Source: a virus
DNA: 64,000 bases
Direction: 5' to 3' (one strand)
Virus record (IMG/VR): IMGVR_UViG_3300030104_005063
Location: 1 to 64,000 of that record
Shown here: positions 17,452-36,266 of the stretch, in pieces
Layout of the letters: each line of letters starts with the position of its first letter
Numbering within the stretch: position 1 is the stretch's first letter
The notes under the pieces: model-generated
What the model saw: the letters and a program-made list of their open reading frames with translations, nothing else
Databases searched by the model: none
What the model was told of the DNA's origin: nothing
Program-made: the position numbers and the translations under genes

Positions 17452-18195
17452 ATGGACTTAGATGCTATAAAAAGCCGTCTTAATCAGTTACAGAACACAC
17501 AAACAAATGCGTTTTGGAAACCTCAACCTGGAAAATCTCAAATCAGAATTGTACCTTATAAGCACGACAAGAACAACCCGTTTAGTGAGTTGTTCTTTCA
17601 TTACAGTTTAGTTCCAAATAAAACTGTATTGTCACCACTTTCATATGGTCGTCCTGATCCTGTTCAACAATTTGCCGATAAGTTGAAATCAACTGGCAAC
17701 AAAGATGAGTGGATTCAAGGTAAGAGAATCGAACCAAAAATGAGAACTTTTGTTCCTGTAGTGGTTCGTGGTGAAGAAAACGAAGGTGTTAAGTTTTGGG
17801 GATTTGGTAAAACTGTTTATCAAGAACTTCTTGGTATCATAGCCGATCCAGACTATGGTGATATATCCGATGCTACAACAGGTCGTGATATTGTTGTTGA
17901 AAGACAAACACCTGCTGAAGCTGGTAACCAATATGGTAAGACCACCATTCGTGTCAAACCAAATGTTACAGCACTTTCCGATGATTCTAACTCACTTACC
18001 AAGTTGTTAGATGAACAACCAGACATCAAAGAGTTGTATAATGAACCAACTTTTGATGAGTTGAAAGAACATCTTAGTAACTTTCTGAATCCATCAGATT
18101 CTACAGAAGAAACAACAGAAAAAGAACCAGAAATGGTTACTACTGAAGCTTCTTCAAATGTAGAAGACGATTTCGATAAGTTATTTAATTCATAA
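17452..18195 (+). CDS. Single-stranded DNA-binding protein, gp32-like
   Basis: A 247-residue gp32-type SSB. The N-terminal basic segment (DAIKSRLNQLQN, then FWKPQPGKSQIRIVPY) is the cooperative and OB-fold entry; SPLSYGRPDPVQQFA and FVPVVVRGEENEGVKFWGFG are conserved in T4-like SSBs. The C-terminal tail is acidic (EPEMVTTEASSNVEDDFDKL), the usual docking peptide for replication and recombination partners. T4 gp32 is longer (301). ATG has a strong AGGAG site. It coats ssDNA at the fork and loads UvsX and helicase. A strong hairpin terminator follows directly. Confidence 0.9.
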   Translation: MDLDAIKSRLNQLQNTQTNAFWKPQPGKSQIRIVPYKHDKNNPFSELFFHYSLVPNKTVLSPLSYGRPDPVQQFADKLKSTGNKDEWIQGKRIEPKMRTFVPVVVRGEENEGVKFWGFGKTVYQELLGIIADPDYGDISDATTGRDIVVERQTPAEAGNQYGKTTIRVKPNVTALSDDSNSLTKLLDEQPDIKELYNEPTFDELKEHLSNFLNPSDSTEETTEKEPEMVTTEASSNVEDDFDKLFNS

Positions 18196-22884: not shown

Positions 22885-24897
22885 ATGATTAAAAAGTTTG
22901 TTCTATCGGAGAATTTCATCAACAAGTATAAAAGAAGAAAAGCTCCTTTCGGTTTTAATGGATTAGGTGAATTAGTTTACATGAGAACCTATTCAAGAAT
23001 CAAAGAAAATGGTAAAAATGAAAGATGGTGGGAAACCGTACAGCGTGTTGTAGAGGGAACTTACAATATGCAAATGAATTGGATTGAATCACATCAATTA
23101 GGGTGGAATGCGTGGCAAGCTCAAAAGTCGGCTCAAGATATGTATGACCGAATTTTCAACATGAAGTTCTTGCCTCCTGGACGCGGTCTGTGGGCTATGG
23201 GTACACCTATCACAGAGAAAAAGGGTTTATATGCCGCCCTAAACAATTGTGCTTTCGTATCAACAAAAACACTCAAAGAAGATTATGCTAAACCTTTCTG
23301 TTTCCTTATGGATGCAAGTATGTTGGGTGTTGGAGTTGGATTTGATACGAAAGGTGCTGGAGAGATAGTAATAAAAGGTATAGATGAAAAAAGAGACGAA
23401 CAAGTCTATGAAATACCTGATACGCGTGAAGGTTGGGTTGAGTCGTTAAAATTACTATTGGAAAGTTACTTTCATGGTCAAGCACCGATGGAATTTGACT
23501 ATAGAAAGATAAGACCAGCAGGAGAACCTATAGCTGGTTTCGGTGGTGTATCAAGTGGGCATGAACCTTTAGAAGAAGTACACGAAGATATTAGAAAGGT
23601 ATTAGAAAAAAATAGTGGAGAACCAATCACTATCACGACCATCGTAGACATCATGAACTTAATTGGTAAATGCGTCGTAGCTGGTAATGTAAGAAGAACC
23701 GCAGAGATTGTATTTGGAGATTCCCATTCAGAAGAGTATTTAGATTTAAAAAATTATAAAGTAAACCCACACAGAGAAACTTATGGATGGACAAGTAATA
23801 ATAGTATATTTGCAGAATTGGGTATGGATTATACAGAGGCTGCCAAACGAATCGTGGATAATGGTGAGCCTGGATTTGCGTGGTTGGATAATATGAGAAA
23901 ATATTCTCGTATGAAAAATGGTGGAGATAATAAAGACCATAGAGCTATGGGTGGTAACCCTTGTTTAGAACAAACTCTTGAGTCATATGAGTTGTGTTGT
24001 TTAGTAGAAACATTTCCAAACAATCACGATTCATTTGAAGATTATGCTAAAACCCTTAAATATGCTTATCTATATGCCAAAACAGTAACACTTGGTAGAA
24101 CACATTGGAGTGATACAAACAGAGTTATGTTAAGAAACAGAAGAATTGGATGTAGTGTAAGTGGAGTTGCTCAGTTTGTTACCAATAGAGGATTAGATGA
24201 GTTCAAGGAATGGTTAAATAATGGCTACGATGTCATCCAAAAATGGGATAAACAATATTCAGATTGGATGGCAGTTCCAAGAAGTATCAAAACCACTTCA
24301 GTTAAACCAAGTGGAACTGTATCTTTACTTGCTGGTGCTACACCAGGTCTTCACTATCCTGAATCAAGATTTTATATAAGAAGAATTAGGTTATCAAAAC
24401 ACTCAGAATTAATAGAACCATTAGAAAAAGCTGGATATAAATTAGAACCAGCATTTGGTTCTGAAGACACTACTATGGTTGTCGATGTGCCCGTAGATGT
24501 AGGGGAAGGTATCAGAACTGCTTCTGAACTATCCATATGGGAACAATTCTCGTTAGCTGCGTTTTTACAACGACATTGGGCTGACAACCAAGTAAGTTGT
24601 ACGGTTACATTCAATCCTGAAACAGAGGCAAATCAGATTGCTCCTTGTTTAAACTATTATCAGTATCATCTAAAGGGTATTAGTTTATTACCAAGACATG
24701 ATTGGGGAGCATATCCACAAATGCCATATGAAGCGATTGATGAAGAAACTTACAACAAAGAAGTTGCAAAACTTGGTAAGTTATCATTTGGTGTGATAAA
24801 GAACGAAGAGGCTGATGTCGATAAGTTCTGTAACAACGATAGTTGTGAAATTCCACCTATGCATGGTGACAATGACGACCAAGAGTATGCTAACTAA
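22885..24897 (+). CDS. Adenosylcobalamin-dependent ribonucleotide reductase, class II (RTPR-like)
   Basis: A 670-residue monomeric-type class II reductase that makes dNTPs from ribonucleotides through a B12 radical. FLPPGRGLWAMGTP is typical of the Lactobacillus RTPR group. Cys122 (NNC), Cys360 and Glu362 (NPCLE), and Cys371 (LCC) match the catalytic set, with the same 11-residue spacing as Cys408 and Cys419 of the L. leichmannii enzyme. KPSGTVSLLAGATPGLH is the phosphate-binding segment. C649-N-N-D-S-C654 near the end matches the Cys-x4-Cys swinging redox pair. The gene ends TAATGA and is followed by the TonB receptor. Confidence 0.9.
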   Translation: MIKKFVLSENFINKYKRRKAPFGFNGLGELVYMRTYSRIKENGKNERWWETVQRVVEGTYNMQMNWIESHQLGWNAWQAQKSAQDMYDRIFNMKFLPPGRGLWAMGTPITEKKGLYAALNNCAFVSTKTLKEDYAKPFCFLMDASMLGVGVGFDTKGAGEIVIKGIDEKRDEQVYEIPDTREGWVESLKLLLESYFHGQAPMEFDYRKIRPAGEPIAGFGGVSSGHEPLEEVHEDIRKVLEKNSGEPITITTIVDIMNLIGKCVVAGNVRRTAEIVFGDSHSEEYLDLKNYKVNPHRETYGWTSNNSIFAELGMDYTEAAKRIVDNGEPGFAWLDNMRKYSRMKNGGDNKDHRAMGGNPCLEQTLESYELCCLVETFPNNHDSFEDYAKTLKYAYLYAKTVTLGRTHWSDTNRVMLRNRRIGCSVSGVAQFVTNRGLDEFKEWLNNGYDVIQKWDKQYSDWMAVPRSIKTTSVKPSGTVSLLAGATPGLHYPESRFYIRRIRLSKHSELIEPLEKAGYKLEPAFGSEDTTMVVDVPVDVGEGIRTASELSIWEQFSLAAFLQRHWADNQVSCTVTFNPETEANQIAPCLNYYQYHLKGISLLPRHDWGAYPQMPYEAIDEETYNKEVAKLGKLSFGVIKNEEADVDKFCNNDSCEIPPMHGDNDDQEYAN

Positions 24898-24907
24898 TGA
24901 AATGCGG

Positions 24908-24943
24908 ACAGGCAGACGACACACCTGTGAATAAAAATGTGTC
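24908..24943 (+). other. Possible H-type pseudoknot in the reductase-TonB gap
   Basis: ACAGG (24908) can pair with CCTGT (24924), and GACACA inside that loop (24918) with TGTGTC (24938). The two stems interlock as in an H-type pseudoknot. Stems are short (5 and 6 bp), so this may be chance. Confidence 0.25.
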
Positions 24944-24972
24944 TTAACAATAACAAAGCTAGGAGACAGATT

Positions 24973-27705
24973 ATGAATTATCGTAATCTCATCTCTGTTC
25001 TGATGATGTCAGTTGGTCTTGTCTTTGGACAAGCTGTTACTGGTTTTGTTGGAAACGGAGAAGAACCACTTGTTGGAGCAAATCTTGTGGTTGAAGGAAC
25101 TGAGCTTGGTGGCGTAACTGATTCCGAAGGAAAGTTCGTCATCGAAACAGGTACAGGTACTTTCGACTTAACTGCTTCATACATCGGTTATGTATCCCAA
25201 ACCAAAAGTGTAAGGGTTGGGGACATAGTTGGGAGTGTTAGTTTCGACTTAGAAACTGATGTTGTTGCTCTCACAGCACTTGAAGTTTTGGCTTCTCGTG
25301 CCGATGAAACAACACCCGTAGCCTACACTAATGTTAGTAAAGAGGAAATGGAAGTTCGTCTTGGTTCTCAAGACATTCCAATGATTCTTAACACAACACC
25401 AAGTGTATATGCTACTCAACAAGGTGGCGGTGCGGGAGATGCCCGTATCAATGTTCGTGGATTCAATCAGAGAAATGTTGCTGTCATGATAAACGGTGTT
25501 CCCCAAAATGATATGGAGAACGGATGGGTTTATTGGTCTAATTGGGATGGGGTAGGTGATGCTACTTCCTCAATTCAGATGCAAAGAGGTCTATCAGCCG
25601 TCAATCTAGCAACACCATCTATTGGTGGAACTATGAACATTATCACCGATCCTGCTGCCCAAGAAAAGGGTGGAAAGTTCAAACAGGAAGTCGGTGAGGG
25701 TGGATTTCTAAAATCTACCTTGAATTATAACTCAGGTCTAATCAATGATAAACTGGCAGTAAGTGGAACGATTGTTCGTAAAACCGGTGATGGTTTTATA
25801 GACGGAACATGGACAGACGCTTGGGCTTATTATCTTGGTACATCTTATGCTGTATCAGACAAACAGAGGTTTGAGTTATACGCAATAGGTGCACCACAAA
25901 GACATGGTCAGAACCTATACAAACAGAACATAGCAACCTACTCTCAAGAGTTGGCTGGAAGTATCGATGGATATAATGATTCAGCTTATGTTGAAGGGGA
26001 GAAGTTTGAACATGAAGCTGGTAGGTTCTTCAACCAAAATTGGGCTCCAGTATCTTCGGATTACAAAGGACAACAATATTGGTATATGTATGGCGCCAGA
26101 ACAACAGATAGGTACAATCCTAATCTGTTGAATGAAAGAGAAAACTTCTTTCATAAACCACTTGTAAATCTAAACCATTTTTATGATATCAATGATGAGA
26201 TGAGATTATCTTCGGTATTATATTGGAGTGGTGGTTCTGGTGGTGGTACTGGTACTTATGGAAGTGTCAGTAGAAAACCAGCTATTGAAGGAAACCAATG
26301 GTGGGCTAGTTCACCTTGGATGTGGGATTGGGATGCTGAGATTGAACAGAACTCTGCTAATGTAGACTCTGCTTGGTCTGATACAGAAAATCGTTCCACA
26401 GGTATCCTAAGAAACTCAATCAATAGACAGAATACTTATGGTTTGATTTCTAAATTAAACTATGATGTATCAGATGAACTTGAAGTTCAAGTTGGTATTG
26501 ATTGGAGAACTGCTGGTATTGAACATGCTAGAGAAGTTCGTGACTTACTTGGTGGAGATTACTATGTAGACTTTGCTGATGACAATTTTGCTGATGGTAA
26601 GAAAGTTGGGTTAGGTGATATAATTGCTTATCACAACGAAACCACAGTAGATTGGTTTGGTGCTTTCTTACAAGGTCAATACGATACAGAGAAGATTAAT
26701 CTTTATGGTATGGGTGGTATTTCAACCATCGAGTATACTTACAAAGACTTTTTCTCTGTTGAGAAAGAACTTGTAGAAGCTCCATCTATTACAACCTTTC
26801 AAGTAAAAGGTGGTGGTAGATATAATCTTGACGACAGACTTTCGGCATTTGCTAATGTCGGATATGTTCAGAAACCACCAATTCTTGATAATGTAATTGA
26901 CTATGATGGAAATGTATCTACAAATCCAGACAATGAGAAATTTACATCTTTTGAAATCGGTGGTGAGTATGGAAGTGAGTTAGTTGCTATCAAAGGTAGT
27001 TATTACAACACCCAATGGAAAGATAGGAACTTAACTAAATCTGTAACCACAGGTCAAGGTGACTCAGGTGACACAGACATCATTTATTTAACAGGTGTGA
27101 ATCAATCACATTCTGGTGTAGAGGTTGAATCTAAGATTGCTCTACACGAAATGGTGGACTTAGATGTTGCTGTTAGTATCGGTGATTGGTATTTTGATGG
27201 AGATGCGAAGGGTGATTATACTGAGATGGAATACAACGATGATAACCAAATCATTGGACAAACATCTACAGAATATCAGTATGCTTTAAGTAATCTTAAA
27301 GTTGGTGACATGCCACAAACTGCTTATGTTGGTGGATTAACATTAAAACCAATTAAAGGATTGAGTGTACAAGGACTTTACAGATGGTATGACAATCATT
27401 ATGCTGATTGGAGTCCTGATGCTCGTGAGGTTGACGAAGATGGTGCTGATAGGGCACAAGTATGGAAAACACCATCCTATGGTAAGTTAGACATACATGC
27501 TTCTTATAAGTTACCAGAAGTTGCTGGTTTAGACATGACATTAAGTGCTCATTTATTCAATGCACTTGATGATGTTTATATCCAAGATGCAACAGATAAC
27601 AGTAAGTATAATGGGTACGGTGATAAACTTCACTTGGCTCATAACGCTGAAGTATTCTTGGGAACACCAAGAAGTTTTAATTTAGGACTTTCTGTTAATT
27701 TCTAA
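24973..27705 (+). CDS. TonB-dependent outer-membrane receptor
   Basis: Start placed at ATG 24973, behind AGGAG, because it gives a clean signal peptide (MNYRNLISVLMMSVGLVFGQ); the upstream ATG at 24937 would prefix 12 polar residues. The 910-residue protein then has a carboxypeptidase-regulatory-like domain (about 22-95, EPLVGANLVVEGTELGGVTD), a plug domain (about 125-225, INVRGFNQRNVAVMINGVPQ and GGTMNII), and a 22-strand-type barrel ending in the aromatic residue of SFNLGLSVNF. It is full length with no frameshift. Such receptors import B12, siderophores or glycans using TonB energy. They are not a normal phage gene. Style suggests an FCB-group donor, perhaps Marinimicrobia. It follows the B12-dependent reductase by 75 bases and ends at a terminator. 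Confidence 0.92.
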   Translation: MNYRNLISVLMMSVGLVFGQAVTGFVGNGEEPLVGANLVVEGTELGGVTDSEGKFVIETGTGTFDLTASYIGYVSQTKSVRVGDIVGSVSFDLETDVVALTALEVLASRADETTPVAYTNVSKEEMEVRLGSQDIPMILNTTPSVYATQQGGGAGDARINVRGFNQRNVAVMINGVPQNDMENGWVYWSNWDGVGDATSSIQMQRGLSAVNLATPSIGGTMNIITDPAAQEKGGKFKQEVGEGGFLKSTLNYNSGLINDKLAVSGTIVRKTGDGFIDGTWTDAWAYYLGTSYAVSDKQRFELYAIGAPQRHGQNLYKQNIATYSQELAGSIDGYNDSAYVEGEKFEHEAGRFFNQNWAPVSSDYKGQQYWYMYGARTTDRYNPNLLNERENFFHKPLVNLNHFYDINDEMRLSSVLYWSGGSGGGTGTYGSVSRKPAIEGNQWWASSPWMWDWDAEIEQNSANVDSAWSDTENRSTGILRNSINRQNTYGLISKLNYDVSDELEVQVGIDWRTAGIEHAREVRDLLGGDYYVDFADDNFADGKKVGLGDIIAYHNETTVDWFGAFLQGQYDTEKINLYGMGGISTIEYTYKDFFSVEKELVEAPSITTFQVKGGGRYNLDDRLSAFANVGYVQKPPILDNVIDYDGNVSTNPDNEKFTSFEIGGEYGSELVAIKGSYYNTQWKDRNLTKSVTTGQGDSGDTDIIYLTGVNQSHSGVEVESKIALHEMVDLDVAVSIGDWYFDGDAKGDYTEMEYNDDNQIIGQTSTEYQYALSNLKVGDMPQTAYVGGLTLKPIKGLSVQGLYRWYDNHYADWSPDAREVDEDGADRAQVWKTPSYGKLDIHASYKLPEVAGLDMTLSAHLFNALDDVYIQDATDNSKYNGYGDKLHLAHNAEVFLGTPRSFNLGLSVNF

Positions 27706-27718
27706 AACGATAAATTTA

Positions 27719-27745
27719 GGGGGGTTGAAATATATCCCCCTTTTT
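27719..27745 (+). terminator. Rho-independent terminator after the TonB receptor
   Basis: A run of six G (27719-27724) and CCCCC (27736-27740) form the stem around an 11-base loop, followed by TTTTT. It closes the reductase-receptor unit. Confidence 0.85.
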
Positions 27746-27760
27746 ATCAAAGGTATTTAA

Positions 27761-28264
27761 ATGAAAAAGTTATTATTTTTATTATTATTATTATTTGGAT
27801 GTGACGATAGGATTGAAGAACCAAATAAATCAAATATTATAGTTACAATGCTAAGAATACCTAGAATAGAAATATTAGATAATATATGGATTACACCAGC
27901 TCCAATATGGGGACATTTAGAATCAGAAGATAGTATACCCGTTGAAAGAATGATTGTACATTGGTGGAGTAATATGTATTGGGATGAAGATGATTCAAGT
28001 GGACATTACAGATTGTTATCTAATCGTAGAAACAAAGCAATATGGTATGATAAATTTGGTAACAGAGATACTATGGATGTAGATGTAGATACATTAAGAT
28101 GGACTACAGATAGATACTCTGAAGTAGATAGTTTAGGATATTTTTTTAATACACTAAGACCTACAAGAGTAATGCAAAATAAAGGTTCGGGTAGTTATAT
28201 GAAATTGTATTGGAGTATTGAAAATACACTAATAGATTCACAAGAAGTTTTTTTAATGGATTAA
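27761..28264 (+). CDS. Predicted lipoprotein
   Basis: A 167-residue protein with a type II signal peptide: MKKL, a Leu/Phe-rich core and the lipobox LFGC, so Cys14 would be lipidated. The mature part is rich in Trp, Tyr and Asp and in short beta strands (MIVHWWSNMYWDEDD, YMKLYWSIENTL), perhaps an Ig-like domain, but I recognise no family. It starts 16 bases after the TonB receptor terminator with AAAGG upstream. It is cellular in style and may have travelled with the receptor gene, for example as a surface partner or an exclusion lipoprotein; both are inference. Confidence 0.75.
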   Translation: MKKLLFLLLLLFGCDDRIEEPNKSNIIVTMLRIPRIEILDNIWITPAPIWGHLESEDSIPVERMIVHWWSNMYWDEDDSSGHYRLLSNRRNKAIWYDKFGNRDTMDVDVDTLRWTTDRYSEVDSLGYFFNTLRPTRVMQNKGSGSYMKLYWSIENTLIDSQEVFLMD

Positions 28265-36024: not shown

Positions 36025-36266
36025 TGAGAGAAGAATTAATTAAAGCTAGTAAAATGCATTTTGAAGCACATATAGAAAAACATCGTGTAAATGTAGAAAA
36101 CATTTTACATAATTCAGTTGGTGTAGCTGAACACTCGGATATAATTGACACTATAGAAAAAGAGTTAGAAGTTATTGCCGAGTACGATGATAAACTTAAT
36201 GTTTTAAAAAAATATTTTCCTAATGATTATCAAGGAGACGATGTGAGGAAGTTAATAAATGGCTAA
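36024..36266 (+). CDS. Small helical phage protein
   Basis: An 80-residue all-helical protein beginning at ATG 36024 in TGATG overlap. HIEKHRVNVENILHNSVGVA and IIDTIEKELEVIAEYDDKLNVL resemble a small conserved protein frequent in marine T4-like phages. Function unknown. It overlaps the first glycosyltransferase gene by 8 bases. Confidence 0.6.
   Translation: MREELIKASKMHFEAHIEKHRVNVENILHNSVGVAEHSDIIDTIEKELEVIAEYDDKLNVLKKYFPNDYQGDDVRKLING

Follow-up and report, generated by a model that had tools for sequence, protein, structure and literature searches.

Auxiliary genes carried by phages mostly encode cytoplasmic enzymes or parts of photosystems. TonB-dependent receptors are already known from marine phages: a SusC-like receptor of the megaphage Mar_Mega_1 has been proposed as an auxiliary metabolic gene, with neither a reductase pairing nor a leader mentioned in the portion of that article consulted (PMC9723777), and BFVD entry A0A8D9FQQ5 is a distant member with 12% identity to the present receptor in a structural alignment. 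Class II reductases of the Lactobacillus leichmannii type, the class to which the reductase described here belongs, are known from virioplankton phages encoding ribonucleoside-triphosphate reductase (RTPR), in a paper where TonB, BtuB and Marinimicrobia go unmentioned (PMC10547690). The closest described RNA element is the gene 32 operator of T4, T2 and RB69, an H-type pseudoknot lying about 65 nt before the start codon, with an A/U-rich stretch and then the ribosome-binding site between them, and perhaps the sole viral pseudoknot used for translational autoregulation according to a 2010 review (PMC3014915). In the open-licence PMC literature, no report was found of the present receptor family, its association with RTPR, its descent from Marinimicrobia, its dedicated pseudoknot or a phage TonB-dependent receptor associated with cobalamin; the first four appear unreported there.

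The reductase-receptor locus

The source is an IMG/VR record of 100,504 bp (G000), and the window is its positions 1 to 64,000. The first-pass annotation placed a class II ribonucleotide reductase (RNR), a 75-base gap, a complete TonB receptor (signal peptide, regulatory domain, plug and barrel) and a terminator in this order, an arrangement borne out by profile matches, the alignment of relatives and an AlphaFold2 model. Its label of T4-like phage is reasonable, with phrog_23 tail sheath, gp32-like single-stranded DNA-binding protein (SSB), UvsX, DnaB-type helicase, PolB and clamp loader all encoded. The features of the locus are as follows.

17452–18195, + strand: gp32-like SSB (phrog_1192, E 1.1e-18), a candidate binder of the pseudoknot
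22885–24897, + strand: monomeric class II (adenosylcobalamin-dependent) ribonucleoside-triphosphate reductase, 670 aa (TIGR02505, phrog_367, PDB 1l1l)
24908–24943, + strand: H-type RNA pseudoknot, leader of the receptor gene (covariation in 46 distinct sequences; model R1, 58.6 bits)
24961–24966, + strand: receptor Shine-Dalgarno sequence AGGAGA, 17 nt past the pseudoknot
24973–27705, + strand: TonB-dependent outer-membrane receptor, 910 aa (Pfam Plug and CarbopepD_reg, AlphaFold2 model, Foldseek against PDB, 325 relatives)
24973–25032, + strand: receptor signal peptide region (MNYRNLISVLMMSVGLVFGQ), assigned by eye, its start aligned in 27 phage copies
25054–25275, + strand: CarboxypepD_reg-like N-terminal extension (PF13715, 52.2 bits)
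25270–25302, + strand: TonB-box-like segment LTALEVLASRA, nearly invariant from phage copies through host orthologues
25306–25632, + strand: receptor plug domain (PF07715, 53.1 bits)
27718–27741, + strand: intrinsic terminator after the receptor gene, AGGGGGGTTGAAATATATCCCCCT-TTTT, conserved in relatives
27761–28264, + strand: small lipoprotein (MKKLLFLLLLLFGC lipobox) after the receptor terminator, an ORF with versions in several relatives (for example, L024, L007 and L010)

The reductase exceeds the equivalog cut-off of NCBIfam TIGR02505 (AdoCbl-dependent RTPR; 371.7 versus 340.05 bits), and matches phrog_367 (454 bits) and the L. leichmannii RTPR structure 1L1L (E 1.9e-99); its dN/dS is 0.04–0.08. 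The receptor ORF is open from 24937, and ATG 24973 is the likeliest start because relatives align there, a Shine-Dalgarno sequence lies 6 nt upstream and the preceding stretch is a conserved RNA element rather than protein. The receptor model combines a plug with a barrel (pLDDT 85.9, pTM 0.81); phage sequences alone gave pLDDT 51.7, and cellular orthologues were added for the model used. Foldseek searches with this model matched TonB-dependent receptor structures with E-values down to 2.5e-39. Together with the signal peptide and a TonB box before the plug, these features place the protein among TonB-dependent receptors. The ALEVLASRA motif is nearly invariant in phage and cellular copies, and at 66% of plug positions phage and Marinimicrobia copies share one fixed residue. 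Receptor dN/dS is 0.06–0.14, indicating purifying selection. Because ORFs are intact in 65 distinct loci at this dN/dS, and the TonB box and plug are kept, the phage copies look functional as TonB-dependent receptors, and expression at the cell surface and active transport would be expected of them.

Two further regions of the record stand apart from this locus. A long run of ORFs at 36259–63701, some matching glycosyltransferase families (phrog_2170, phrog_841), looks like a surface-modification module that is large for a T4-like phage. Beyond the window, a cluster of ThyX, phosphoribosyltransferase, PhoH and PNP_UDP_1-family genes (G000 70239–72858; L392:6239-8858) suggests phage nucleobase and nucleoside salvage.

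Ancestry, spread and loss of the receptor

The closest cellular proteins are from Candidatus Neomarinimicrobiota (57–66% identity), and in a FastTree phylogeny the phage receptors form a clade nested within Fidelibacterota (Marinimicrobia/SAR406). Because of this nesting, the host of the phage family is probably an uncultured member of the Marinimicrobia. Orthologues scoring above 1000 bits occur in about one-third of 199 sampled Fidelibacterota genomes. Phage copies share domain order (CarbopepD_reg, plug and barrel), TonB box, plug and most fixed residues with the FCB/Fidelibacterota receptor family, whose orthologues are 44–68% identical, but differ from it in having the pseudoknot leader, the terminator and a neighbourhood of replication genes. 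In the nearest Marinimicrobia, the orthologue stands alone amid housekeeping genes (SRAP upstream, a DnaG-like region downstream); synteny in these genomes was dropped as a ligand clue, the neighbours being uninformative. One 4,266-bp contig binned as Neomarinimicrobiota (L232, JAFMFP010000048.1) carries a receptor within the phage clade without the pseudoknot, which would mean either a transfer from phage to host or a viral contig placed in the wrong bin.

Relatives of the receptor are encoded by 325 viral-contig stretches in IMG/VR, where some contigs are present under several locus identifiers, such that counts refer to loci and not to independent phages. The same gene pair was found in related phage contigs, the RNR nearly always preceding the receptor. 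Among the best 80 of the 325 receptor loci, the RNR lies directly upstream, or with one gene between, wherever there is upstream room; conversely, searches from the RNR recovered the receptor in 63/71 loci with room, and searches from the leader element placed the RNR upstream in at least 64 receptor loci and recorded its absence in at least 5. Five contigs with a relocated receptor (G214–G218) are fragments of 19.7–57 kb that correspond to the accessory region of the phage described here, and a PF02867 search of these fragments detected no RNR, whatever the class. A 280-aa predicted membrane protein is encoded immediately before the relocated receptor in five contigs (L413:1188-2033 and relatives). 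Two kinds of gene also occur as insertions: a glutamine synthetase gene lies between the RNR, receptor and polymerase genes at L046:10883-11866 and about 14 other loci, and an AhpC/TSA-family peroxiredoxin gene lies between RNR and receptor at L030:1497-2063, L032, L089 and L090.

Eighteen RNR loci have no receptor. Two without an intact receptor retain the last receptor codons and the terminator (L180, L119), and three retain the leader element and the first ~12 receptor codons (L210, L215, L220); RNR-only phages are thus deletions in several cases. Relatives often match the window at ~90% identity in RNR and receptor, against ~53% in the flanking helicase and polymerase; the pair has therefore been co-inherited or swapped as a block. 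Given 325 relatives and the low dN/dS, the presence of the receptor is not due to chance.

The pseudoknot leader

The sequence from RNR stop to receptor start (GCGGACAGGCAGACGACACACCTGTGAATAAAAATGTGTC) contains an H-type pseudoknot, in which stem S1 pairs ACAGG (24908–24912) with CCTGT (24924–24928), stem S2 pairs GACACA (24918–24923) with TGTGTC (24938–24943), and the third loop is A-rich. Among 46 distinct leaders, 99.0% of cells are paired and 6 of the 11 pairs are changed on both sides, with 26 two-sided-change cells observed versus 3.9 after shuffling (reached by 0/500 shuffles). Covariation collapses when the partner strand is slid, and the result was repeated with a trimmed set that includes one relocated locus. 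Both helices covary, as in H-type pseudoknots: two-sided changes affect 3/5 pairs in one and 3/6 in the other, where 97.8% and 100% of cells, respectively, are paired.

This element belongs to the receptor gene alone. It is present at 92/93 distinct receptor starts (87 matched a strict pattern, and 5 close variants were recognized by eye), lies 13–21 nt from GGAG in 101/107 junctions (mostly 17–20 nt), and stays with the receptor when glutamine synthetase or AhpC-like genes intervene or when the receptor relocates; in the AhpC-like insertion loci (L030, L032, L089 and L090) it overlaps the end of the inserted ORF. A covariance model also finds it in L210, L215 and L220 among the 18 receptor-less RNR loci. 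In the IMG/VR scan, it preceded no other gene among the matches listed (70 informative cases). It was found in 0/73 regions upstream of host orthologues and, under stricter filters without a positive control, in 0/149 host genomes. No Rfam family (preQ1, SAM-II, SAM-V, cobalamin and others) matched at gathering threshold, and the best E-value within positions 24860–25000 was 1.7, a chance-level match.

Leader layout fits the geometry of the gene 32 operator, but the minimum-free-energy fold puts some structure at the ribosome-binding site, which would be unstructured in an operator of that type. The window phage is likewise T4-like with a gp32-like SSB, which is a candidate binder; however, the two elements are unrelated in sequence, the present one precedes the receptor gene rather than gene 32, and no such pseudoknot was found in the leader of the phage's own gp32-like gene. 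The pseudoknot is most likely a translational operator or a metabolite-sensing element that would act at the ribosome-binding site 17–20 nt downstream. Two other modes of action were rejected. A switch that sequesters the Shine-Dalgarno sequence, taken from the minimum-free-energy fold of the window, did not generalize, since blocking the 3′ strand of S2 alters Shine-Dalgarno pairing in just 5/107 junctions. Readthrough or frameshifting at the end of the RNR was discarded because the spacing to the RNR stop varies and the pseudoknot stays with the receptor past inserted genes.

Candidate ligands and alternative roles

Gene neighbours provide the main clues to the ligand. An exported nucleotide pyrophosphatase/phosphodiesterase (NPP; PF01663, 320 bits), closest to ENPP1/4/5, is encoded directly downstream of the cellular orthologue in 18 loci from Bacteroidota, Ignavibacteriota, Calditrichota, Chlorobiota, Balneolota and KSB1, on the same strand and with gaps of 7–477 nt, whereas any other family follows the cellular orthologues in at most 2 loci. 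In phages, the interval holding the RNR, receptor and polymerase genes also takes genes for dUTPase, ThyA, ThyX, nucleoside 2-deoxyribosyltransferase, YfbR-like 5′-deoxynucleotidase, glutamine synthetase and an AhpC-like protein. The ThyX, phosphoribosyltransferase and PNP_UDP_1-family genes elsewhere in this phage fit the same context. Because NPP adjoins the cellular orthologues and the phage neighbours are nucleotide-metabolism genes, our best guess from these associations is that the ligand is a nucleotide, a nucleoside or another phosphodiester-type precursor. Against this reading, the nearest Marinimicrobia lack the NPP link, which is seen in 44–53%-identical orthologues of other phyla; the phage receptor loci examined yielded no NPP gene; and clusters of nucleotide-metabolism genes are common in phages without any receptor. 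Since NPP enzymes also use lipid-type phosphodiesters, a different phosphorus compound is also a possible ligand. A deoxynucleoside kinase gene (PF01712) lies directly downstream in two Marinimicrobia (L233, a close homologue, and one other; 2 of about 44) and was set aside as a general clue when it did not extend beyond these genomes; M16 peptidase genes after NPP and potassium-transport genes were judged unrelated.

The first-pass annotation proposed that the receptor boosts uptake of cobalamin, the cofactor of the neighbouring RNR. Uptake that aids dNTP synthesis stays plausible, given the nucleotide-metabolism locus and the ~90% block identity; cobalamin as the ligand is not supported by the sequence comparisons or the structural model, and is decidedly improbable. 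The RNR is of the AdoCbl type and adjoins the receptor in nearly all loci, the two are conserved together at ~90% identity while flanking genes are at ~53%, and no contig was found that combines the receptor with a class I RNR. However, the host itself depends on a B12-requiring RNR (NrdJ_Z over cut-off in 57/61 sampled host genomes) and has its own riboswitch-linked receptor. The cobalamin riboswitch (RF00174) occurs in 34/40 FCB genomes, where the gene after it is usually TonB-dependent receptor-like but of another clade: riboswitch-linked receptors of Marinimicrobia, the analogues of BtuB, score 15–24 bits or nothing against the phage-receptor HMM, versus about 900–1641 for orthologues. Riboswitches and the receptor orthologue lie on different contigs in FCB genomes, and an Rfam search of the 64,000-nt window found no RF00174, the riboswitch being absent from the phage gene and host orthologues alike; a B12 link through the riboswitch was therefore rejected for the phage receptor clade on the basis of the window and the 40 genomes. 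Searches of structure and HMM libraries for BtuB-like features came back negative, BtuB ranking only 24th by Foldseek, below PqqU, Fiu, FhuA and FecA, with no match to a BtuB-type NCBIfam model. E. coli BtuB shares the fold (TMt about 0.8) but has no sequence affinity with the phage receptor, which is longer, has an N-terminal extension and lacks riboswitch control. The cellular orthologues have NPP as a partner, with no BtuFCD or cob genes seen nearby; moreover, the receptor is missing from 18 RNR loci and lies away from the RNR in five contigs. Import of another nutrient, which the annotation had listed as an alternative, is the better-supported branch. In a rival to the nucleotide reading, that nutrient would be an iron chelate, a peptide, a sugar or a phosphorus compound other than a nucleotide, and the RNR neighbourhood would simply be a convenient early-gene site. 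Fold alone cannot reveal the ligand, as the top-ranked structures include receptors for PQQ, catecholates, hydroxamates and citrate, and assignment from Foldseek matches was dropped as too unspecific; the receptor's position away from the RNR in five contigs also suits this alternative. The cross-phylum NPP linkage and the recurrent nucleotide-metabolism context in phages argue against it, and it is rather unlikely, though a serious contender.

A role outside nutrition is conceivable, in which the phage receptor replaces, competes with or masks the host receptor of rival phages. Phage-encoded porins and lipoproteins with exclusion-type roles are known, and an FhuA–Llp complex is among the Foldseek matches. 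The lipoprotein encoded past the terminator in some relatives (27761–28264 in the window), which has no Pfam or PHROG match, could be a receptor partner or, by analogy with T5 Llp, a superinfection-exclusion lipoprotein. The phage also encodes, outside the window, a 104-aa TonB_C-domain protein with an N-terminal signal-like segment (PF03544, 49.5 bits versus a cut-off of 24.6; G000 91945–92259, L393:8945-9259), which could energise or interfere with TonB-dependent uptake and, in an exclusion role, may occupy TonB boxes. A mere decoy would need neither the plug, largely fixed and common to host copies, nor the TonB box, yet both are retained; in addition, the receptor gene sits in the replication region, and the TonB_C protein is found in only 9/27 related contigs, persisting in one that has lost the receptor. 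A role of this kind, by replacement or exclusion, is quite unlikely. Conservation of the RNR-receptor block could also reflect recombination instead of function, with the block hitch-hiking by homologous recombination. Deletions leaving 5′ remnants (L210, L215, L220) or 3′ remnants (L180, L119) are consistent with a gene of little function, but the low dN/dS, the 65 distinct intact copies and the conserved dedicated leader make this explanation very improbable.

The leading reading, held tentatively, is that the phage keeps a copy of a Marinimicrobia (FCB-group) receptor to hold or raise import of a replication-limiting nutrient, likeliest a nucleotide, nucleoside or phosphodiester and not cobalamin. 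This host-derived receptor would be expressed together with the phage replication genes and would keep or raise active import during infection. It may usually sit behind the class II RNR because the RNR locus is the nucleotide-supply locus of the phage, and would nevertheless form an independent module with its own pseudoknot leader, ORF and terminator. In a more ambitious version, possible but doubtful, a marine T4-like lineage captured a host importer, evolved a dedicated pseudoknot RNA for that gene alone (a new riboswitch class or an SSB-type operator) and carries a TonB_C protein, amounting to self-regulated, energised uptake of DNA precursors.

If the receptor actively transports, lytic phages would manage nutrient entry into infected cells, across hundreds of ocean contigs. 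Marinimicrobia/SAR406 are abundant and largely uncultured, and the receptor ties a large phage group to this likely host phylum. The pseudoknot is small and well defined, and its binder would reveal what the phage senses when switching the importer on.
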